This document shows, piece by piece, positions 24,292-35,075 of a stretch of DNA of 64,000 bases. Origin of the DNA: Blastopirellula sp. J2-11 (GTDB taxonomy: Bacteria > Planctomycetota > Planctomycetia > Pirellulales > Pirellulaceae). The notes below the pieces were generated by a model, which worked only from the letters and a program-made list of their open reading frames with translations, was not told the origin of the DNA and did not search any database. Both the position numbers and the translations under genes were made by a program. How positions within the stretch are numbered: position 1 is the first letter of the stretch; each line of letters begins with the position of its first letter. The stretch is taken from contig NZ_CP097384.1 in NCBI RefSeq assembly GCF_024584705.1, positions 682,001-746,000 of the forward strand. Reading direction: 5' to 3'.

Positions 24292-24329
24292 TTAACGCTT
24301 GTTCACAGTTTATTCATCGAATCTTAACA
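24292..24329 (+). promoter_or_regulatory. PHO-box-like array of direct repeats upstream of pstS
   Basis: Four related hexamers sit on one face of the helix: TTAACG (24292), TTCACA (24302), TTCATC (24313) and TTAACA (24324), spaced 10, 11 and 11 bases. PhoB/PhoP-type regulators bind TT(A/C)ACA-like direct repeats with about 11-base periodicity. The last repeat ends 105 bases before the pstS start. Recognition as a PHO box is inference from spacing, sequence and the genes downstream. Confidence 0.6.
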
Positions 24330-24434: not shown

Positions 24435-25403
24435 ATGATCCGCTGCCGGAACTTCTTTTTGGTCGCCGCTTTGGCGCTGACCGCACCGCTTGCCGCTTCG
24501 GCGCAAGTTCAAGTCGACGAAAACCTGCCGTCTTACAAGCCGGTTCAGGGAGTCAACGGAAACATCAGCAGCATGGGTTCCGATACGATGAACAACCTGA
24601 TGACCTTGTGGGCGGAAGGTTTCCAGAAGTTCTACCCAGGCGTCACGATCGAAATCGAAGGCAAGGGTTCTTCGACCGCTCCGGCCGCGCTGACCAAAGG
24701 GACCGCGACGTTTGGCCCGATGAGCCGCCCGATGAAAGAAGATGAAATCGACGCCTTCGAAAAGGCCTATGGTTACAAGCCGACGCAGCTGGGCACTTCG
24801 ATCGACATGCTGGCGGTCTTCGTTCACAAAGACAACCCAATCAAGGGCTTGTCGTTGGAACAACTGGACGCCGTCTTTTCCAGCACTCGCAAGGGTGGCG
24901 GCAAAGCCGATATCACCACTTGGGGTCAGCTTGGTTTGGAAGGGGCTTGGGCCAATCGCGCGATCAGTCTGTATGGTCGTAACTCGGCCTCAGGCACCTA
25001 CGGCTACTTCAAAGAAAACGCGCTGTTCAAAGGGGATTACAAAACCTCGGTGAAAGAACAGCCGGGCAGCTCGGCGGTGATCCAAGGGGTCGCCAACGAT
25101 CAGGCTGGTATCGGCTATAGCGGCATCGGCTACAAAACCGCCGCCGTCCGCGTCGTGCCGCTGTCGAAGACGGGGACCGATTACGTCGAACCGTCGATGG
25201 AAACGGTCAGCAGCTACCCGTTGTCGCGCTTCCTGTATCTCAGCGTCAACCACAAGCCGGGCAGCCAGCTTGACCCGCTTCGTCTTGAGTTCATCAAGTA
25301 CATCTTCAGCAAAGAAGGTCAAGAAGCGGTTGTGAAAGATGGCTACTTGCCGCTCAACGCCAAAGTCGCGACGCGTCAACTTGAGATGATCCTCAAGAAG
25401 TAG
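24435..25403 (+). CDS. pstS: Phosphate ABC transporter substrate-binding protein PstS
   Basis: Periplasmic phosphate-binding protein of the high-affinity Pst system, 322 residues with a signal peptide (1-23, ending ASA). Phosphate-contacting segments are visible: SMGSDTMNNL near residue 46, EGKGSSTAPAAL near 75, PMSRPMK near 97 and YGRNSASGTYGYFKE near 183, the last two being hallmarks of PstS. It is the first gene of the phosphate operon, directly behind the putative PHO box. A terminator-like hairpin separates it from pstC, so it should be expressed above the permease genes. The SBP is of the type paired with the enlarged PstC/PstA proteins of marine bacteria. Confidence 0.95.
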   Translation: MIRCRNFFLVAALALTAPLAASAQVQVDENLPSYKPVQGVNGNISSMGSDTMNNLMTLWAEGFQKFYPGVTIEIEGKGSSTAPAALTKGTATFGPMSRPMKEDEIDAFEKAYGYKPTQLGTSIDMLAVFVHKDNPIKGLSLEQLDAVFSSTRKGGGKADITTWGQLGLEGAWANRAISLYGRNSASGTYGYFKENALFKGDYKTSVKEQPGSSAVIQGVANDQAGIGYSGIGYKTAAVRVVPLSKTGTDYVEPSMETVSSYPLSRFLYLSVNHKPGSQLDPLRLEFIKYIFSKEGQEAVVKDGYLPLNAKVATRQLEMILKK

Positions 25404-25516: not shown

Positions 25517-28213
25517 ATGTCGCAAGACGATAAGAGTTTCTCCGGCCGCCGACGTCGCATGAAGACGCGTTGGACGGTCGCCGCCGCCGACGTACTGTCG
25601 GAGTTCGTGATTACCGTTGGCGGAATTGGTACGATCGTCGCCGTTTTGGCGGTGTTCGTTGTCCTGGTTGCGCGTGTCGCTCCACTAGGATTGCCTGCTT
25701 CTCTTTCGGGCGAAGTGACGCGTGAAACGCATTGGGGAGCAACCAAGCCGGTTCACCTGGCGGTCGATGAGTACCAATCGATCGGTTGGGTGTTGTTTGA
25801 TGACGGGCGCCTCGAAACGTTTCGCGTGGATAACGGTGAAAAACTTGGCGAGCGTCAGCTTTTCCAAGACAAACAACTCTCGGCCATTTCCACGTCGGTA
25901 GGACGTGGCGGTCTGCTGCTTGGTTTTCTGGATGGTTCGATTCAGTTTGCCGACATCCATTTTGCGACCACCTTTATCGACGTCGTCGACGCCCCCGAGC
26001 AATTTCATGGAATGAAGCCTGGCGAGCGAGCGACCTATCAGCCGGAAGAGAACGAGACCGGCGTCTTGGAGCTTACGTCGCAGGGACAGTATCGAGTGCA
26101 GTTGCTCGAATCGAGCGTGCTCGATCCGGTTCAGGTGACGGACAAAGCGATCTTGATGCTGGACCATGTGCCCGAAGCGGCTAGCGGCGGCAATCAGGTC
26201 AGCATCTCGAAAGACGATCGCAAGTACGTTTGCTTTGCGGCCGACGGCAAGTTGCGTTACGGCACGCTGAAGGAGGAAGAAGATTTTCTGACCGGCGATG
26301 TGACGCTGAAAAACGAAACGATCGAGTTGGAGATCGCCGACATTCAAGGCGAACGCCCGCAGTTTCTACTGCAAACCGCCCGCGGCAACGACATCTTGCT
26401 GGCTTGGAAGTCGGGCCAGATGGTCCGGTTTGTTCGCGAAAGCGCGGAGGATGGATCAGGCTATCATCTGAATCCGGCCGAGAAGGTCGACCTGCTTCCT
26501 GATACTGACGCACAGTTAACCGTCTGCGACTTTATCTTGGGACGCGAGACCGTTTTTGTCGGCGATAGCCAAGGGGGCGCAAGCGGCTGGTTTTTGGTTC
26601 GCGGCGCCGAGACGGAAGAACCAGAGTTGCAAGCCCGCAAAACCAGCGACGGTTTTACCCTGGCGCGCGTGCATGTGCTGCAACCGGCGCCTGGCGAGAA
26701 GATCAATTCAATGCGCGCGTCGGAACGTAGCCGCATGTTGGTCGTCGGTTACGAGTCGGGTCGTTTTCGCGTCTACCAAATGACGACCGAACGACTCGTG
26801 CTCGATCGCCATCTGCCGAAGGACGCTCCGGTAATCGGCGCGATGATCACGCCGAAAGATAACGGCTTGTTGGTCGAATCGGGCGAAGGAATATATCTTT
26901 GGGACTTTGATCCGCGACATCCTGAAATTACGGTTGCAGCGGCGATTATGCCGGTCTGGTACGAAGGTTATCCGAAGCCGCGTCAGATCTGGCAAAGCTC
27001 GTCGGCCGGCGTCGAACCAGAAATGAAATTGGGGCTCTACCCGCTGATCTCCGGTACGCTGAAGGCGACGTTCTACTCGATGTTGTTCGGCGCTCCGATC
27101 GCGCTGCTGGCGGCGATTTATACCAGCGAGTTCACGACGCACAAAGTTCGCGCCGTCGTCAAACCGACGGTCGAGATGATGGCGAGCCTGCCGAGCGTCG
27201 TTCTCGGATTTCTGGCGGCGATCGTGTTCGCTCCGATCGTGGAGTCGTTTTTGGCCTTCTTTTTAACGACGGTTGTCGTCGTGCCGCTCACCTTTATTTT
27301 GGCGGCCATGATGTGGCAATTGTTGCCGCGGCGGATCGGCTTGATCCTCGAGTCATGGCGTCTCTGGTTCATGGTTCCGGCGCTGCTGCTGGGACTGGCC
27401 GTTTCGTATCTGCTGGGACCGCTGGTCGAGCAGATCGCCTTCGACGGCAATGTGAAGCTGTGGCTTGACGGGCGGGGATCAGGCGTCGTCGGCTGGTTGA
27501 TGATGTTGTTACCGTTGGGCGGGATGTTCGCTTTCTTTTTGAACGGCGCCTTTATTAACCCTTATTTGCGAGCCAGGGCGCTGCAGTGGAATCGATCGCA
27601 GTTCGCCCTGTTAAGCCTGGTTAAATTCGCCGCGCTGGTGCTGCTGACGTTCGGCTTCGCCTGGTTGCTCTCGTCGGCGCTCTATTGGCTGCCGACGCTG
27701 TTTGGCGCTGAAGTCTGGGATCCGCGCGGCACGTTCATTGATAGTTACGCCCAGCGCAACTCGTTTGTCGTCGGCTTTGTGATGGGGTTTGCCGTGATTC
27801 CGATCATCTACACCATCGCGGATGACGCGTTGGCGACCGTGCCGAAACATCTTCGCTCAGCGTCGCTCGGCTGCGGAGCGACTCCCTGGCAAACGACCGT
27901 ACGCGTGGTGATTCCGACTGCAATGAGCGGGCTCTTCTCGGCATTGATGATCGGTTTGGGACGCGTGGTTGGCGAGACGATGATCGTGCTAATGGCCGGC
28001 GGCAACACGCCGGTGACCGATTGGAATATCTTTAGCGGCTTCCGGACGCTGAGCGCGACGATTGCGATTGAACTGCCGGAAGCGGTGGAGAACAGCACCC
28101 ACTTTCGCATGTTGTTTGCAGCGGCCTTGGTGCTGTTCGTCATCACCTTTTTGATTAATACCGCGGCCGAAATTGTGCGGCTGCGTTTCCGTAAACGAGC
28201 TTATCAACTATGA
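25517..28213 (+). CDS. pstC: Phosphate ABC transporter permease PstC with large beta-propeller-like domain
   Basis: Inner membrane permease of the Pst importer, 898 residues against about 320 in E. coli. A first membrane helix (about 30-58) is followed by a ~450-residue extracytoplasmic region of repeated strand-turn-strand units (for example SIGWVLFDDGRLETFRV and MLVVGYESGRFRVYQM) that looks like a WD40-type propeller. The permease domain begins near residue 510 and has the EAA-type loop LRSASLGCGATPWQTTVRVV followed by the final helices. Such enlarged PstC proteins are known from marine Gammaproteobacteria and planctomycetes. The stop codon overlaps the start of pstA by four bases (ATGA), so translation is coupled. 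Confidence 0.92.
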   Translation: MSQDDKSFSGRRRRMKTRWTVAAADVLSEFVITVGGIGTIVAVLAVFVVLVARVAPLGLPASLSGEVTRETHWGATKPVHLAVDEYQSIGWVLFDDGRLETFRVDNGEKLGERQLFQDKQLSAISTSVGRGGLLLGFLDGSIQFADIHFATTFIDVVDAPEQFHGMKPGERATYQPEENETGVLELTSQGQYRVQLLESSVLDPVQVTDKAILMLDHVPEAASGGNQVSISKDDRKYVCFAADGKLRYGTLKEEEDFLTGDVTLKNETIELEIADIQGERPQFLLQTARGNDILLAWKSGQMVRFVRESAEDGSGYHLNPAEKVDLLPDTDAQLTVCDFILGRETVFVGDSQGGASGWFLVRGAETEEPELQARKTSDGFTLARVHVLQPAPGEKINSMRASERSRMLVVGYESGRFRVYQMTTERLVLDRHLPKDAPVIGAMITPKDNGLLVESGEGIYLWDFDPRHPEITVAAAIMPVWYEGYPKPRQIWQSSSAGVEPEMKLGLYPLISGTLKATFYSMLFGAPIALLAAIYTSEFTTHKVRAVVKPTVEMMASLPSVVLGFLAAIVFAPIVESFLAFFLTTVVVVPLTFILAAMMWQLLPRRIGLILESWRLWFMVPALLLGLAVSYLLGPLVEQIAFDGNVKLWLDGRGSGVVGWLMMLLPLGGMFAFFLNGAFINPYLRARALQWNRSQFALLSLVKFAALVLLTFGFAWLLSSALYWLPTLFGAEVWDPRGTFIDSYAQRNSFVVGFVMGFAVIPIIYTIADDALATVPKHLRSASLGCGATPWQTTVRVVIPTAMSGLFSALMIGLGRVVGETMIVLMAGGNTPVTDWNIFSGFRTLSATIAIELPEAVENSTHFRMLFAAALVLFVITFLINTAAEIVRLRFRKRAYQL

Positions 28214-30750
28214 CCTCGCCTGCTGACAACGACGCTGCCGCCGCGCCGCGGGAGAAACGAGGGCACGTTTCCAAACCGGGCCTTTCGCTCCTCGCGCAGG
28301 GCGAGCCCATGGTCTGGCTAACCGGCGGTTCGCTGGCCCTTTGTTTACTGATGATCTTCGGCCTGCTGTCGCTGGTCATCTACAACGGCATGCGCACCTT
28401 CTGGCCGGGACAGCTCTACCAGGTCGAAACCGTCGACGGGGCGATCTACTTGGGGGAAGAGGCCGGCGTCGAAAAATTTGATCTGACCGAGCAATTGATC
28501 AACTCGTTTCCGCCCGAACTGGCGAAGGCCCGCGAGATCTCTCAGCAGAAGTTTGAAGCGGCGGGCAGCGTTCCGTTTGAAGTGGAGCGGCGCCAATATC
28601 GGACCGGCAACTTCGATATTATCTCCAACTTCGATCGCGAAGGAACGCACTACCATACCGTCACCGAATTTGAGATGGTCTCGCCCGAAGCGACGCTGCC
28701 CGAGTGGGCGATGGTGATCGAGCGGCTATCGTGGGGACGTTTCTACGGCATGCCGGTTGAGTTCAAGATGTCGTATCAGCGACCGATCTCGGCCGAAGAA
28801 GAACAACTAGCCGATATCGTCCAGCAACTGCAAAGCAACTCGTACCGCATCACGGACGCCGATCAAGCGGCGCAGCTCAAAGAAGCGCTCGCGCCGGTCG
28901 AAGCGGAGCTTACCAAGGTTCGGGCCGCGAATATTGACGCCTTCGTCGCTGAAAACAAATCGCTCGCCGGCGAGTTGCGGGCCAAATTGAAGTCGGGCGA
29001 AGAAAAGCCGCTGGCCGACGTGAAATCGGATGAGCAAAACGTCATAAGCATCGTTCAGGCGACTGTCGGACCGGAAGAAGCTTGGGACAAATTTAACGAG
29101 TTTCATGACGAAGTCATTAGTCGTTCTGCGCGTCGCAAAGAGATCGAAGAGTTTGAAGTTGGTGAAGTCAACAGCGAAGAAGAAACGGCGCGATTGGAAT
29201 TACGTGATGAAGAGATCGCCCATCCCGGCGTCTTTATCGTGGAGTTGGCGAATGAGTTAGCTCGGCTACAAGGGCAAGTCGCAGTTCTCGACGCGATCGG
29301 CGAAAAGAACCAGGCGGTATTGCGACAGATCGAAAAGCGATATGGCGCCGATTCGCCGCTGAGCAAGTTTGCTCAGAAAATCACGCAAGGTTTGGCGACC
29401 GACCTGGTCGAGCAGCAGACGCAACCGAAAACGCGGATCGCGGAGATCAAACAGTTGGTCAACGCGATGCCGGAATCAACGCAAGCGGCGGTCGAGAGTT
29501 TCCTCCGAATTCGCCAGGAATCGACCGAACGTACCGTCAAGCTGCAGGATCGTATTCGGCAACTCAACGACGAGAACGCGCGCTACGTGCTGCATATGCA
29601 GACCGCACAAAAGATCGACAAAGATATCCCGCTGTCAGAGATCGTCCGGGCCTTTCCCGCCAACCGACTGGGCATCGCTGGCAAGCTGGGAGTTTACATG
29701 TCGCGTTGGGGCGAGTTTCTGATGGATGACCCGCGCGAAGCGAACTCGGAAGGGGGCGTTTTTCCGGCGATCTGGGGAACCGTCGCGATGACGATGATCA
29801 TGTCGATCCTGGTCGTGCCGTTTGGCGTATTGGCCGCGCTTTATCTGCGCGAGTTCGCCAAGCCGGGGCCAATTGTCAGCGCCATTCGCATTAGCATCAA
29901 CAATCTTGCCGGCGTGCCGAGTATCGTTTTCGGCGTGTTCGGTTTCGCTTTTTTGATTGGCAACGTCGGGCGCTACATTGACGGTGGTCCAAAAAACGCC
30001 GACCTGCCGGTGATGTCGTCGGGAAGTTGGTATCTGTTGTTGGGCGTCTTAGCGGCGACTGCGTGCGGCGCTTTTATGATGTCGATGTATGCGGTTGGCA
30101 ATCGGCGTCAATTGACCGGCCGTCGCAATCAATGGCTCGGCAAATTCGCGCTGCTGTTGTGGGTCGCCGCGACGGTTGCATTTTTAGTCGCTTTGGCGAC
30201 CACGCCTGAATTCAACGGCTTTTTTACGTCGCATTTGCCCAACCCGGTGTTTGGCAAAGGTTGTTTGGCGTGGGCCAGCATTACGCTCGCGTTGTTGACG
30301 TTGCCGGTGGTGATCGTCGCGACCGAAGAGTCACTGGCCGCAGTCCCCAACTCGCTGCGGGAAGGCTCGTATGGATGCGGCGCCAGCAAATGGCAAACCA
30401 TCTGGCGAATCGTTCTGCCGCACGCATTACCGGGAATCATGACCGGCATGATTTTGGCCATGGCGCGCGGCGCCGGCGAAGTTGCGCCGCTGATGCTGGT
30501 CGGCGTATTAAAACTCGCGCCGGAATTGCCGGTTGATTTTACGCCGCCGTTTTTGCATTTTGATCGCAGTTTTATGCATCTTGGTTTTCACATCTACGAC
30601 CTTGGTTTTCAGAGTCAGAATAGTGAAGCCGCCAAGCCGATGGTTTACACCACGACATTGTTGTTGATCGGCGTGATCGCCTTATTGAACTTGTCGGCGA
30701 TTTGGCTTCGTGCTCGCTTGCGACGGCGATTCCAGCCGGGGCAGTTCTAA
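28210..30750 (+). CDS. pstA: Phosphate ABC transporter permease PstA with long coiled-coil insertion
   Basis: Partner permease of PstC, 846 residues against about 300 in E. coli. After one membrane helix (about 37-62) there is a ~430-residue extracytoplasmic insert, largely charged and helical from residue 200 to 470 (Glu, Lys, Gln and Arg-rich, for example LQDRIRQLNDENARYVLHM), which should form coiled coils. The permease domain starts near residue 505 and carries the EAA loop LREGSYGCGASKWQTIWRIV and MARGAGEVAPLMLVG, typical of PstA. The insert probably interacts with the propeller of PstC or with PstS, which is inference. ATG at 28210 overlaps the pstC stop. Confidence 0.92.
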   Translation: MTSPADNDAAAAPREKRGHVSKPGLSLLAQGEPMVWLTGGSLALCLLMIFGLLSLVIYNGMRTFWPGQLYQVETVDGAIYLGEEAGVEKFDLTEQLINSFPPELAKAREISQQKFEAAGSVPFEVERRQYRTGNFDIISNFDREGTHYHTVTEFEMVSPEATLPEWAMVIERLSWGRFYGMPVEFKMSYQRPISAEEEQLADIVQQLQSNSYRITDADQAAQLKEALAPVEAELTKVRAANIDAFVAENKSLAGELRAKLKSGEEKPLADVKSDEQNVISIVQATVGPEEAWDKFNEFHDEVISRSARRKEIEEFEVGEVNSEEETARLELRDEEIAHPGVFIVELANELARLQGQVAVLDAIGEKNQAVLRQIEKRYGADSPLSKFAQKITQGLATDLVEQQTQPKTRIAEIKQLVNAMPESTQAAVESFLRIRQESTERTVKLQDRIRQLNDENARYVLHMQTAQKIDKDIPLSEIVRAFPANRLGIAGKLGVYMSRWGEFLMDDPREANSEGGVFPAIWGTVAMTMIMSILVVPFGVLAALYLREFAKPGPIVSAIRISINNLAGVPSIVFGVFGFAFLIGNVGRYIDGGPKNADLPVMSSGSWYLLLGVLAATACGAFMMSMYAVGNRRQLTGRRNQWLGKFALLLWVAATVAFLVALATTPEFNGFFTSHLPNPVFGKGCLAWASITLALLTLPVVIVATEESLAAVPNSLREGSYGCGASKWQTIWRIVLPHALPGIMTGMILAMARGAGEVAPLMLVGVLKLAPELPVDFTPPFLHFDRSFMHLGFHIYDLGFQSQNSEAAKPMVYTTTLLLIGVIALLNLSAIWLRARLRRRFQPGQF

Positions 30751-30777: not shown

Positions 30778-31692
30778 ATGACGACGCAACGCGAAATTGA
30801 GAATATCCCTCAGACGAGAAACAGCGTGAACGAGACTTCCCCTGCACAGCAGCCCGCCGAAGAGCGTCAGAACCGCTTGGAAATGATCGCCCAAGGGCAT
30901 GAGTTCGACTCGGTTATTCACGATTCGGTGAAACGCGAAGATTGCGTGCTTGAGATCAAAAACTTCAACCTGTGGTATGGCGAGAAGCAAGCGCTGTTCA
31001 ATGTCAACATGCCGGTTCCCAAGGGCCAAGTGACGGCGCTGGTGGGACCATCCGGTTGCGGCAAGTCGACGCTGTTGCGTTGCGTCAACCGGATGAACGA
31101 CTTGATCGATACCGTCCGCATCCAGGGAGACATCGTCCTCAACGGCGATTCAATCTGTGACGCCGGCGTCGATGTGATCGAACTGCGGAAGCGAATGGGA
31201 ATGGTTTTTCAAAAGCCGAATCCCTTTCCGATGAGCATTTTTGAAAACGTCGTCTACCCGCTGCGCATCGACGGCGAGCGAAATCGGGGAGTCCTGGAAG
31301 GGGTTTGCGAACATAGCCTCAAAGGCGCCGCGATCTGGGACGAAGTCAAAGATCGACTGCACGAGAGCGGGCTGAGTCTCTCTGGCGGACAGCAGCAGCG
31401 GTTGTGCATCGCGCGGGCGATCGCCAGCGAGCCGGAAGTGCTGTTGCTGGACGAACCATGCTCGGCGCTCGATCCGATCGCGACCAGCAAGATCGAAGAC
31501 TTGATTCGCGAACTGCGCGGCGAGTACTCGATCTTGATCGTGACGCACAACATGCAACAAGCGTCGCGGATCAGCGACTACACCGCGTTCATGTATCTAG
31601 GGCGTTTGGTTGAGTTCGGTCCGACCGTCGACATTTTCACCAATCCCAAACTGACCGAAACCAACGCCTACGTCACCGGCCGCTTCGGCTAA
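30778..31692 (+). CDS. pstB: Phosphate ABC transporter ATP-binding protein PstB
   Basis: ATPase subunit of the Pst importer. It has Walker [10 protein letters not shown], the Q-loop [17 protein letters not shown] typical of PstB, signature [16 protein letters not shown], Walker [14 protein letters not shown] and the switch His in IVTHNMQQ. The 304-residue chain has an N-terminal extension of about 50 charged residues compared with E. coli PstB (257), which might be trimmed if translation begins later, but the ATG at 30778 is the first start 27 bases behind pstA. An unfamiliar repeat protein follows rather than phoU directly. Confidence 0.96.
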
Positions 31693-31750: not shown

Positions 31751-32932
31751 ATGATGTCTCGATTCATTGGCGCCTTCGTTTGTCTCGCTTTGATTTTCGG
31801 ATCGATCGTTCCGGCCGCCGCCGCTGAACGTCGATCGGAGGAGCATCAGCAGTTTGCCAAAGACTTCTGGAGCTACCTGAGCGGCAAGTACGAGAAGTGG
31901 GATGTCTTACCGCAGGCGCCTGCCGCGGCGCCGGCTCCGCAAGTCGCCGGCGAGTCCAAAGCGTACGCCAATCCCGTCGCCCTGCAAAACATCAACCAGC
32001 CCGGCTACGGATCGATTATCGTGGTCGAACATCTGCAAGATGGCGACATCATCGGCGTGACCGCGTGCTATCGAGCGAAAGCAGGAATCGATTCCAAGCA
32101 AAACGATTGGTATTGGCTCTACTATCTTCCCACAGGCGAAGTGGTGAAAACATCGGCCGACAAAGCCGCATTCGATAAGCCTGGCTACGTCACCTTTGAA
32201 GAGGATGGCCGCTTGTGGGTGTTTGGCCTGACGAACGCTAGTCTGGCCAACTTTTTGACTGCCGGCGAACCGGCGAAGCAAGTCATTCGCCCCGGCGTCG
32301 GTCCGTCAGGCATGACAGTGAAGTCGGATGAAATGGAAACGATTCTTGGCTATCTCGCCGCCAAGCCGGGGTTTGTTACGGCGATCGAAGATGGACGCGT
32401 CTGGGTTTTGCGTGAGGGGAGCGAAGCCGCCGACCAGTTTCTCACCGCAGGCGAGCCGGCCAAGCAGGTGATTCGACCAGGCGTAGGGCCGCTGGGAGTC
32501 ACTTTGAAATCGGACGACGCCGCAACGATCGCCGCATATCAATACGGAAAACCAGGCTTTGAAGCCGCCGTCGACGCCGATGGCCGCGTATGGGTCTTTC
32601 CGGCCGACGGAGACGCCTGGAAAGAGTTTCGTGAGCAAGGAGAACCGGCCGCCCACGTCACGAAAATTGGGGTCGGCCCGCAGCGCGAGACGCTCAAAAC
32701 GCGCGACGCCGGCGTGATCGAAGCCTATCTAGTCGCTCAGCCGGGTTACGTGACAAAGATTGTCGATGGCCGCTTGTGGGTATTGCGAGCCGATTGTGCC
32801 GAGCTGAAGGAATTCGCCGGCAACTCGGATCTCGCCAAGCATGTCACGAAGATAGGAGCGGGACCGCTGGGAATGACCGTCAAAAGTCCCGACGCTGAAA
32901 CGATTGATTCGTACATGCGGAACTTTCGCTAA
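31751..32932 (+). CDS. Secreted protein with four ~62-residue repeats, inside the pst operon
   Basis: Not a family I can name. A signal peptide (1-25) is followed by a domain (about 35-135) whose NDWYWLYYLPTGEVV and GVTACYRAK stretches resemble cytochrome P460-like folds, without a CxxCH. From residue 143 to 393 the chain is four tandem repeats. Each has KPG[FY]VT, a DGR[LV]WV[LF] strand, GEPAKQVIRPGVGP or a variant, and a [TV]LK[ST]xDxxxIxxY helix; repeats 1 and 2 are closest, 3 and 4 more diverged. It sits between pstB (58 bases) and phoU (52 bases), so it belongs to the phosphate operon. A role as periplasmic accessory of phosphate uptake is inference. Confidence 0.8.
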   Translation: MMSRFIGAFVCLALIFGSIVPAAAAERRSEEHQQFAKDFWSYLSGKYEKWDVLPQAPAAAPAPQVAGESKAYANPVALQNINQPGYGSIIVVEHLQDGDIIGVTACYRAKAGIDSKQNDWYWLYYLPTGEVVKTSADKAAFDKPGYVTFEEDGRLWVFGLTNASLANFLTAGEPAKQVIRPGVGPSGMTVKSDEMETILGYLAAKPGFVTAIEDGRVWVLREGSEAADQFLTAGEPAKQVIRPGVGPLGVTLKSDDAATIAAYQYGKPGFEAAVDADGRVWVFPADGDAWKEFREQGEPAAHVTKIGVGPQRETLKTRDAGVIEAYLVAQPGYVTKIVDGRLWVLRADCAELKEFAGNSDLAKHVTKIGAGPLGMTVKSPDAETIDSYMRNFR

Positions 32933-32984: not shown

Positions 32985-33653
32985 ATGTCGGTTCATTTTG
33001 AAAAGCAGATTGACCAGCTTCGCCGCCAATTGTTGACGCTCGGCTCGATGGTCGAAGATCACGTCATGTTGGCGATTCGAGCCGCCGAAGAGCAAAATCG
33101 TGACCTTGCCCAGGAAGCGGTCAATCGCGACGACGATGTTGACGCGATGCAAATGGCGATCGCGGAAGAGTCGCTGCACCTGGTGGCGCTGTTTCAACCG
33201 GTCGCCTCCGATCTGCGATTTGTGATCACGGTGCAAACCGTGATCAACGAACTTGAGCGAATCGGCGATCAGGCGCACGACATCGGCCAAGGGGTCCTGC
33301 GTCTGCTCGATTCGGGCGCCCATTTTGATCTGCCGCCGCTGTTGCAACAGTCGAAAGAAGCTTCGGTCGAGATGCTGCGGCAAAGTCTTGATGCGCTGCT
33401 GGATCGCGACGCGAGCAAAGCACGCGCGATCATCGCGGCCGACGATAAGGTCGATGAATTGCATCGCAGTATGTACGACTGGTTTAAGAACGGCGCTCGC
33501 CAGCGGCCTGATGATCTTGATTGGATGATGGAGATGCTGACGATTTCGCGGCACGTCGAACGGATCGCCGATCATGCGACGAACATCGCCGAAACGGTCG
33601 TCTACCTGGTCGAGGGTGAGTTGGTGCGCCGCGGCGGCGACCGAGCGCCTTAA
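32985..33653 (+). CDS. phoU: Phosphate transport regulator PhoU
   Basis: PhoU couples the Pst transporter to phosphate signalling and represses the phosphate regulon when phosphate is ample. The 222-residue product is all-helical with two PhoU repeats; the metal-binding E/DxxxD motifs are visible in INELERIGDQAHDIGQ (about 88-103) and SRHVERIADHATNIAETV (about 188-205). Length is normal. It is cotranscribed with pstSCAB and precedes a PhoB-like regulator, the usual order. No PhoR-type histidine kinase is present in the window. Start ATG at 32985. Confidence 0.95.
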   Translation: MSVHFEKQIDQLRRQLLTLGSMVEDHVMLAIRAAEEQNRDLAQEAVNRDDDVDAMQMAIAEESLHLVALFQPVASDLRFVITVQTVINELERIGDQAHDIGQGVLRLLDSGAHFDLPPLLQQSKEASVEMLRQSLDALLDRDASKARAIIAADDKVDELHRSMYDWFKNGARQRPDDLDWMMEMLTISRHVERIADHATNIAETVVYLVEGELVRRGGDRAP

Positions 33654-33719: not shown

Positions 33720-34433
33720 ATGAACAACCGGCTTGTGCTCATTATCGGTCGTCCAGGCAGGCTCAGCGCCGCCTTGGCTGATAACTTGCGGCAATCGGGC
33801 TGCGAAGTGCGAACAGCTGTCGATTCGGAGGATGGTCTGGAGCAGGCGATCACCCATTCGCCTGATATTGTGTTGGTCGGCCATCATTCGCCAGAGTCGT
33901 TTGATATGTGCCGCCGCATCAGCAGTCGAATGCGGCCTGAGCAATTGCCGGCGTTTCTGGTGACGCCGGGCGTTGGTCAAACTGACGGTGTCGACGATGA
34001 GACGCAGTCGATCGATTCTCTGCTGGCGGAGACGCTGGCGCTCGACCTGTTGGCGCAAGGACTAAAGACGCTTCTCAGTCGGGCACGCCAGGCAGGGCAG
34101 GATGACGTGATCCTTGAGCAGCATGGATTGCGACTCGATCGAACTCGCTACACGGCCGAACTTCGGGGAGTATCGATCGGCGCGACGCCGACGGAATTTC
34201 GTTTACTTTGGACGCTGATGGCCAAGCCGGGCCATGTCTTTTCCCGGCATGATCTCTTTGACGCTAGTCGAACGGAGCACGAAGGAGAACCTTCGACGCA
34301 GTCTCGAGCGATCGATGTTCACATCAAAACCATCCGTCGAAAGCTGGCGGAACAAGCAAATCTTATAGAGACTATTCGGGGGGTGGGGTATCGGTTTCGA
34401 GAGCCCGTTTGGGGCGTCGCCCCATTTGAGTAG
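33720..34433 (+). CDS. PhoB/OmpR-type response regulator with degenerate receiver domain
   Basis: The C-terminal half (about 130-230) is an intact winged helix of the OmpR/PhoB type: ATPTEFRLLWTLMAKPG, SRAIDVHIKTIRRKL and IETIRGVGYRF are the positioning and recognition elements. The N-terminal half keeps the receiver fold (hydrophobic strands LVLIIG and DIVLVG) but not its chemistry: the usual acidic pair after strand 1 is Gly10-Arg11 and the phospho-acceptor Asp of strand 3 is Gly54; no switch Lys is evident. It cannot be phosphorylated in the usual way and may respond to protein contact, perhaps with PhoU. Position as last gene of the pst operon suggests it binds the PHO-box-like repeats. 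Length 237, normal. Confidence 0.88.
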   Translation: MNNRLVLIIGRPGRLSAALADNLRQSGCEVRTAVDSEDGLEQAITHSPDIVLVGHHSPESFDMCRRISSRMRPEQLPAFLVTPGVGQTDGVDDETQSIDSLLAETLALDLLAQGLKTLLSRARQAGQDDVILEQHGLRLDRTRYTAELRGVSIGATPTEFRLLWTLMAKPGHVFSRHDLFDASRTEHEGEPSTQSRAIDVHIKTIRRKLAEQANLIETIRGVGYRFREPVWGVAPFE

Positions 34434-34808
34434 AAAGTTATACGCTGTAAGTGCCGATATAGAAAGAGTTTTCGCGTTGTTTCGACTTAATGAAAAGTTG
34501 GTCGCTAGGTATTAAATTTTCTCAAGAGTCTCCTTGAACCGGGTGGAATAGTCGTTCTCCAAATGGGTAGGTTGCGTCGGGTCTTAACTTGGCGACAATA
34601 AGTTCCTGCGATCTTTCCCAGCTTCGCGGACGAGGGTTCTTTGGATCCCGAGTCTAAGAAGGGACGACGCCGCTAGCTCTGCTATCATACCGATAGCGAC
34701 CAGCGGTGATTCTGGCGTCAACGAAGATGCCAGCGTGTGTGAAACGGATTTCCACTGCCGCGGATTTTACGCTTCGCCACGACGGTTTCAGGAGGGACGA
34801 AGTTCGAC
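34434..34808. other. Intergenic region with a two-step hairpin
   Basis: 375 bases without a gene. It holds a hairpin at 34670-34706: outer arms CCGCT/AGCGG and inner arms GCTATC/GATAGC. It has no T-run and could be a structured leader of the small gene that follows. I see no other element. Confidence 0.4.
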
Positions 34809-35075
34809 ATGGTAGTTTGGAAATTGGCTGGTATGACCTTAGCCCAAAAACGAGATGAGCTGCGCCAGGAACTACGGACTCGCTTTATCGAGCCGGAAGA
34901 GTTCTGCGAGCTGGCTGTTTCAAGCCGCAAACTAGTACGCAGCGATGTCAGCGCCGCGTCGGTCAAAGGGCTCTATAGCCCTGATGACAATCTGTATTAC
35001 TTTGTTGAGGAAGAACGCCTTGACAACTTCCGTACTGCACGGGTCCTTGATAGCCAGCCGCTGCAGATCGCCTAA
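34809..35075 (+). CDS. Hypothetical protein, 88 aa
   Basis: Small soluble protein of unknown function. The first part is helical and charged (LAQKRDELRQELRTRF), the second has SPDDNLYYFVEEERL, typical of an ordinary globular chain. An AGGAGG stands about 13 bases before the ATG at 34809, the best Shine-Dalgarno sequence in this part of the window, and an alternative ATG at 34833 lies farther away. A bidirectional terminator at 35193 follows about 120 bases later. The frame has normal codon use, which is the reason to keep it. Confidence 0.6.
   Translation: MVVWKLAGMTLAQKRDELRQELRTRFIEPEEFCELAVSSRKLVRSDVSAASVKGLYSPDDNLYYFVEEERLDNFRTARVLDSQPLQIA

Follow-up and report, generated by a model that had tools for sequence, protein, structure and literature searches.

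The locus analysed here raises the question of what a PhoB-like regulator does at the end of a run of pst genes once its receiver has lost the phosphorylation site. The window, that is, the whole stretch of 64,000 nucleotides that was analysed, belongs to a Blastopirellula genome of 6.43 Mb in a single contig. The gene in question, here called PsR (pseudo-receiver PhoB-like regulator), and the receiver codons discussed below lie as follows:

33720-34433, + strand: PsR, final gene of the pst gene run
33747-33752, + strand: codons for Gly10-Arg11, at the position of the acidic pair
33801-33803, + strand: codon for Cys28, in the alpha1-beta2 loop
33879-33881, + strand: codon (GGC) for Gly54, at the phospho-acceptor position

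The open reading frame of PsR has exactly these limits, starts with ATG and encodes 237 amino acids. In an alignment with the PhoB-like regulators of relatives, residues 10-11 are Gly-Arg where Glu-Asp is normal and residue 54 is Gly where the phospho-Asp normally stands, in agreement with the preliminary description, which had placed both changes at the receiver active site. In addition, Glu104 replaces the switch Lys, which is Lys in 118/118 comparison rows (a set that includes a few non-PhoB OmpR-type regulators and from which seven duplicate PsR loci and identical comparison sequences were dropped), and Pro83 replaces the Ala that follows the switch Thr, with Thr82 itself retained in the window protein. 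Of the features by which a PhoB is recognised, namely phospho-Asp, acidic pair and switch Lys, PsR has none (G54, G10-R11, E104), and it agrees with the definition of a pseudo-receiver as a receiver-like domain without key catalytic residues (PMC12632262). The Pfam receiver model PF00072 scored 14.0 bits, under its cut-off of 30.2, while the winged helix model PF00486 reached 73.4 bits against a cut-off of 26.2, so that the OmpR/PhoB winged helix is intact, as had been claimed. The top NCBIfam match of PsR is TIGR02154 (PhoB) at 96 bits, far under the equivalog cut-off of 296.2, a threshold that the genome's own canonical PhoB likewise misses at 242.9 bits. PsR is thus almost certainly a pseudo-receiver, and the first proposal that it is not switchable by Asp phosphorylation in the usual way stands, since the active-site residues are gone.

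An AlphaFold2 model of PsR built with 46 sequences (mean pLDDT 77, pTM 0.47) places beta3 at residues 50-53, and residue 54 is therefore the acceptor position. Neither Asp nor Glu is present at any of positions 52-56 of this predicted structure, and another Asp standing in at the acceptor site was accordingly rejected. When the model was searched with Foldseek, the top matches were full-length regulators of the OmpR/PhoB type, PhoP and RegX3 among them (E about 1e-12), with TM-scores of only about 0.4 across both domains.

Losses of this kind could mean that PsR is a decaying, functionless PhoB duplicate. Its receiver is far from the family consensus, and the dN/dS of this receiver, 0.02-0.09 in six pairwise comparisons within the genus (NG86, dS 0.36-1.14; the ratios are rough because dS reaches 1.14), lies above the 0.007-0.023 of the canonical PhoB receiver, which is under tighter purifying selection. 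However, these values are far below 1, the frames are open in the members read and the place of the gene is conserved. Gly10, Arg11 and Gly54, whose conservation the preliminary description had proposed to check, are identical in 4/4 Blastopirellula genomes examined (protein identity 87-97%), which together with the low receiver dN/dS argues against sequence error as well as decay. A pseudogene was rejected on the dN/dS values, and decay is extremely improbable.

Profiles were searched in 199 genomes of the family, 296 genomes of the order and GTDB species contigs, and the Vgb-like neighbour described below served as a further query in 199 genomes. The resulting PsR clade of the Planctomycetota has at least 21 distinct members, since low scorers could be hidden among canonical PhoBs. 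It is present in 4/4 Blastopirellula genomes, has nine members in another genus of this family, g66, and eight single members, namely G004, G026, G128, G095, G036 (contig identical to L142), L117, G088 and G067. Identity between the sequences has fallen to about 30-46%, and PF00486 matches 18/18 members tested (E up to 1). Among the 21 members, 7 have Gly at the acceptor position, 10 have Ser and 4 have Asp (the last being G128, G095, L117 and L142/G036), and Gly54 was rejected as a clade-defining trait. Both acidic-pair residues are retained in 0/21 members and the switch Lys in 0/19 aligned members. On the tree, the 'no Asp' state requires 4 changes, 3 of which are forced by starred branches; given these repeated changes, the catalytic pair and the Lys were probably lost first and the Asp was lost repeatedly later. 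In full-length trees, the PsR members included (17, then 19, of the 21; the g66 rows G151 and G114 were absent from both) fell on one side of a single branch with values of 100/99 in both. The tree of the winged helix alone agrees on the clade without support (62/60) and does not resolve it, and the branches are long, so that a single origin, judged from these sequences, is likely but short of proof.

One receiver residue is both new and nearly fixed in the PsR clade, namely Cys28 in the alpha1-beta2 loop, which is Cys in 19/19 aligned rows and in G067 and Ile in G088 (both of the latter read by eye), giving 20/21 members against 1/118 comparison rows. PsR could sense another signal in this way, with a ligand in the rebuilt receiver or a thiol/redox switch at Cys28 setting its DNA binding. 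The Ile of G088 counts against this reading, as does the apparent tolerance of a Cys at the equivalent of position 28 in other receiver families. HP1021, Cj1608 and Abu0127 are described as redox-regulated via a Cys in the alpha1-beta2 loop (PMC12632262), but the paper on HP1021 itself says that its reactive cysteines were not defined, and we consider a sensor of this kind distinctly improbable.

Upstream of PsR, the window holds the following genes:

24435-25403, + strand: pstS-like gene for a phosphate-binding protein, assigned from its place, its sequence by eye and same-place homologues in relatives
25517-28213, + strand: pstC-like permease, 898 aa, named from gene order
28210-30750, + strand: pstA-like permease, 846 aa, named from gene order
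30778-31692, + strand: pstB (TIGR00972, 397 bits, cut-off 343.2)
31751-32932, + strand: Vgb-like protein with repeats, in which a signal peptide is apparent by eye
32985-33653, + strand: phoU (TIGR02135, 179.9 bits, cut-off 130.25)

All of them lie on the same strand in the order listed, with PsR last, and the gene order, the strand and the short gaps make PsR very probably a member of the pst operon. Conservation of this arrangement is uneven. A same-strand pstB precedes the gene in 20/21 PsR members and 9/10 lineages, the exception being G095, in which PsR is adjoined only by the Vgb-like gene and pst genes were not detected nearby. phoU adjoins PsR in 14/21 members but in only 3/10 lineages, a count in which the contigs of L117 and L142/G036 end soon after the PsR gene, and PhoU as the constant partner of PsR was rejected. 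The Vgb-like gene is present at 15/21 PsR loci, and in G128 pstB is followed by the pseudo-receiver, then phoU and then the canonical phoB. The G095 locus is what would be expected if PsR were a diverged regulator of other genes that is merely located in the pst operon; the presence of pstB upstream in all other members, despite their divergence, speaks against it.

Several further observations concern the neighbours of PsR. The Vgb-like protein has repeats of roughly 60-70 aa and reaches 20.9 bits with the Pfam model Vgb_lyase, below the cut-off of 50. Used as a query, it has matches in 36/199 family genomes (E up to 1e-6), and of the 7 high-scoring relatives inspected that are without an adjacent PsR, 5 have pstB directly upstream (not G073 and G126). 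The Pfam-recognised domain covers only residues 707-892 of the 898 in the PstC-like and residues 663-841 of the 846 in the PstA-like protein. In G007, a lone winged-helix ORF of 86 aa (L191:10625-10885, + strand) resembles the effector domain of the PsR clade; a receiver is absent in frame and pst genes were not detected nearby. This genome shares its genus (g5) with G095, whose PsR is likewise away from pst genes.

Downstream of PsR, a small orphan ORF is found in both genera (in the window 34809-35075, + strand, 88 aa), for which no Pfam match was obtained. It is preceded by a strikingly conserved leader (region 34600-35075, + strand; g66 loci such as L147:13595-14150), which we regard as a candidate cis-regulatory RNA. 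Across 9 genomes of g66 the leader has a mean identity of 84%, with compensatory changes in 9/72 predicted pairs, and in its predicted fold TTTCCTTCC pairs with GGAAGGAA, located before the start codon. Among Blastopirellula, 4 species are almost identical over about 100 nt in front of the orphan ORF. Rfam gave 0 matches at the gathering score for L147, L154 and L158, and RNA model R1 gave 0 matches at E 0.001 in 4 Blastopirellula genomes, with a single weak hit (E 0.38) at the corresponding position of L159. About 90 bp past the PsR stop codon, where the leader has its 5' end (L146-L154, e.g. L147:13604-13630), 7/9 g66 genomes retain the element TTAAGGTATCGTTAA, which is of the TTMAY type when read on the opposite strand; the other two, L146 and L153, have one base changed.

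The preliminary description had seen no PhoR kinase in the window and had suggested that phosphate signalling might do without one. A phmmer search with the PhoR of the same genome as query (E up to 1e-5) found no PhoR-like ORF of at least 100 aa in the 64-kb window; phoU is present there, at 32985-33653. Elsewhere in the genome, phoR, whose product has 588 aa, forms an adjacent set with phoU and a canonical phoB (G000:C1, about 3.83 Mb), about 3.1 Mb from PsR. The absence of PhoR and PhoB from the genome was thus rejected, and with a normal phoR-phoU-phoB set in the same genome the bypass of PhoR is unsupported. Signalling via PhoU in place of PhoR, also suggested at first, is weakened by the few lineages in which phoU stands beside PsR. 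The canonical PhoB has the motifs VEDD, ILDLMLP and TKPFS. PhoR scores 385.4 bits with NF046044 (PnpS; cut-off 400) and 297.8 bits with TIGR02966 (PhoR; cut-off 334.2), under the cut-off in both cases, while the PhoU of this set scores above its NCBIfam cut-off.

The three genes were found together in 4/4 genomes of the genus. The canonical PhoB sequence was read in these four, G171, G004, G128, G036 and G067; the other g66 genomes gave a second high-scoring match, and no clear second PhoB match was found by profile search in G026, which is 78% complete. The preliminary description had set against its reading a normal PhoBR pair combined with poor conservation of the gene, or another Asp at the acceptor site; what was found is a normal PhoBR pair, a well conserved gene and no alternative Asp. 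The genome of the window has two PhoU paralogues, one with pst (32985-33653) and one with phoR-phoB (L031:7632-8297), which may be compared with a report of several regulator families per genome (PMC13170248). Taken together, these results suggest that PsR is a second conserved PhoB-like switch, an adjuster of phosphate uptake and not a replacement of the usual signalling.

The DNA-binding half of PsR was compared with the canonical PhoB of the same genome, and two other OmpR-type regulators of this genome were compared with the same PhoB as a control:

34269-34301, + strand: residues 184-194, at the position of the PhoB activation loop; 0/8 identical to PhoB and three residues longer
34302-34346, + strand: residues 195-209, DNA recognition helix; 9/15 identical to PhoB, the two paralogues 8/15 each
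34365-34400, + strand: residues 216-227, wing; 11/12 identical to PhoB, the two paralogues 5/12 and 8/12

As the wings of the paralogues are only 5/12 and 8/12 identical, the wing of PsR is PhoB-like beyond the norm of the family. The recognition helix, in contrast, is non-discriminating, since the paralogues reach 8/15 each; it says little about shared targets, and its likeness was dropped as evidence of them after this control. Within the helix, Arg196 is common to PsR and PhoB and is Asn in both paralogues. In nine genomes, covering 9/21 members, PsR and the PhoB of its own genome are 67-100% identical in the wing, 53-73% in the recognition helix, 0-12% in the loop and 4-23% in the alpha4-beta5-alpha5 face. 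Other PhoBs retain 3-8 of the 8 activation-loop residues, and position 188 is Gly in 115/118 comparison rows against 1/19 PsR members.

The alpha4-beta5-alpha5 face, at which OmpR/PhoB receivers dimerise, is 5/35 identical to PhoB in PsR and 16/35 and 15/35 in the control paralogues; it has therefore departed further than in unrelated paralogues. In the AlphaFold2 model the region lacks its usual elements and forms one helix of residues 98-124 (pLDDT about 52-65). Both results count against PsR as a partner that alters PhoB phosphorylation, and not DNA occupancy, by forming a heterodimer with PhoB or by occupying PhoR or PhoU. Comparable heterodimers are discussed for CmrR/CmrT and BldM/WhiI (PMC12632262; PMC12548384), and the order pstB-PsR-phoU-phoB in G128 would suit such a role, which we nevertheless hold to be very improbable.

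The same comparison bears on an activator that is independent of phosphorylation and, like ChxR, always competent, and that sustains or amplifies the induced pst expression by positive feedback. PsR keeps the PhoB-like wing, and several OmpR-type pseudo-receivers are described as dimeric or active without phosphorylation (PMC12632262). However, the PhoB activation loop is replaced, with the Gly at position 188 kept in so few members, and the canonical dimer face is lost as well, which makes this activator unlikely.

If PsR reads DNA as PhoB does, PhoB boxes should be its targets, and a candidate lies before the pst genes:

24292-24328, + strand: Pho-box-like array in front of pstS, made of four TTMAY units spaced by 10-11 bp and present in 4/4 genomes of the genus

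The units TTAAC, TTCAC, TTCAT and TTAAC start at 24292, 24302, 24313 and 24324, and the repeats that the preliminary description had noticed at 24292-24329 are thereby confirmed. When at most 1 mismatch was allowed, a search for three units with 11-bp spacing gave 1 match in the 64-kb window against 0.07 expected. This box is found without mismatch upstream of pstS in all four genomes of the genus, and the same type lies between phoR and phoU in the four (1 mismatch) and in G004 (0 mismatches); in G026 a box with 1 mismatch lies 87 bp before the pstS-like ORF. In g66, the sister genus, a search for the three-unit box at pstS found it in 0/9 genomes, and it was not found either at the phoR locus of the single g66 genome inspected there (L160). 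A regulator of other genes would account for this gap in g66 and for the recognition helix, in which 6/15 residues are changed and which is no more like PhoB than that of unrelated paralogues. In view of the lasting association with pstB, this reading is quite unlikely.

We tentatively favour the reading that PsR is a kinase-blind PhoB paralogue that is made with Pst, reads PhoB boxes and acts most likely as a feedback brake, although on the sequence evidence the whole of it falls somewhat short of an even chance. PhoR and phosphorylated PhoB would induce the pst operon via the boxes at 24292-24328, so that PsR would be made in proportion to Pst. With its PhoB-like wing and recognition helix, PsR would then bind the same boxes without phosphorylation and, lacking the PhoB activation loop, the phospho-switch and the normal dimer face, would occupy them without an activating contact, and this occupancy would damp or shut off the Pho response in the manner of an anti-activator. 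The feedback brake is favoured because the PhoB-like wing is kept, the switch, the dimer face and the loop are replaced, the protein is made together with the transporter and the box type is shared. That PsR binds the boxes of PhoB at all seems evenly balanced; should it bind them, it would somewhat more probably be a brake than an activator.

The effector domain of PhoB is reported to bind DNA constitutively once the receiver is removed, and PhoB to contact sigma70 (PMC4415409). A system may also exert its effect through the amount of constitutively active pseudo-receiver that its own operon produces (PMC12632262). In contrast, known pseudo-receivers such as ChxR activate (PMC3960148), which counts against a brake. 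The same holds for the loop, whose 0/8 is close to the values of distant paralogues (1/8 and 3/8), for the control on the recognition helix and for the lack of the three-unit box at pstS in g66. An extended form, in which the Pirellulaceae have dedicated activation-dead, kinase-blind PhoB paralogues that oppose phosphorylated PhoB at the same boxes, with the brake redox-gated by Cys28 and uptake limited by transporter synthesis and thiol state, would be highly improbable.

Pseudo-receivers with an OmpR output are well known, with 609 sequences, or 2% of the architecture, in a 2015 survey (PMC4395418). ChxR, HP1043, RitR and CmrT likewise have a degenerate receiver fused to a normal winged helix, and in RitR and HP1043 the second acidic residue has given way to a basic one (PMC4395418), as it has in PsR (Arg11). 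Unlike these proteins, the members of the PsR clade are PhoB paralogues that are encoded within runs of pst genes in Planctomycetota and whose acceptor is Gly or Ser (17/21) or still Asp (4/21), and in Blastopirellula PsR coexists with a complete phoR-phoU-phoB set. PsR resembles PhoB (TIGR02154) in its OmpR/PhoB architecture, pst neighbourhood and wing and differs from it in the absence of phospho-Asp, acidic pair and switch Lys and in the replaced activation loop and dimer face. The CmrRST system of Clostridioides difficile also makes a pseudo-receiver from an operon controlled by a canonical regulator of the same family (PMC12632262; PMC12548384), as PsR would be. In CmrRST, however, a single operon encodes the kinase, the canonical regulator and the pseudo-receiver, whereas PsR goes with the transporter and the kinase and regulator genes are 3.1 Mb away. 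For lacustrine Planctomycetes, PhoR-PhoB is mentioned in a genome paper (PMC6461901). Among the open-access titles and beginnings of abstracts listed, none was found on a pst-linked pseudo-receiver PhoB gene. What seems to be new here is the clade of pst-linked pseudo-receiver PhoB paralogues, pseudo-receivers themselves being already known.

A 2025 review describes the activation and inactivation of bacterial pseudo-receivers as a mystery (PMC12632262). In the PsR clade, nature has replicated such a case in many species; a canonical paralogue exists in the same cell and candidate sites precede two operons, so that phosphorylation, dimer face, activation loop and DNA reading can be tested separately. 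If PsR is indeed a feedback brake, it would add feedback at the level of transcription to Pho control.
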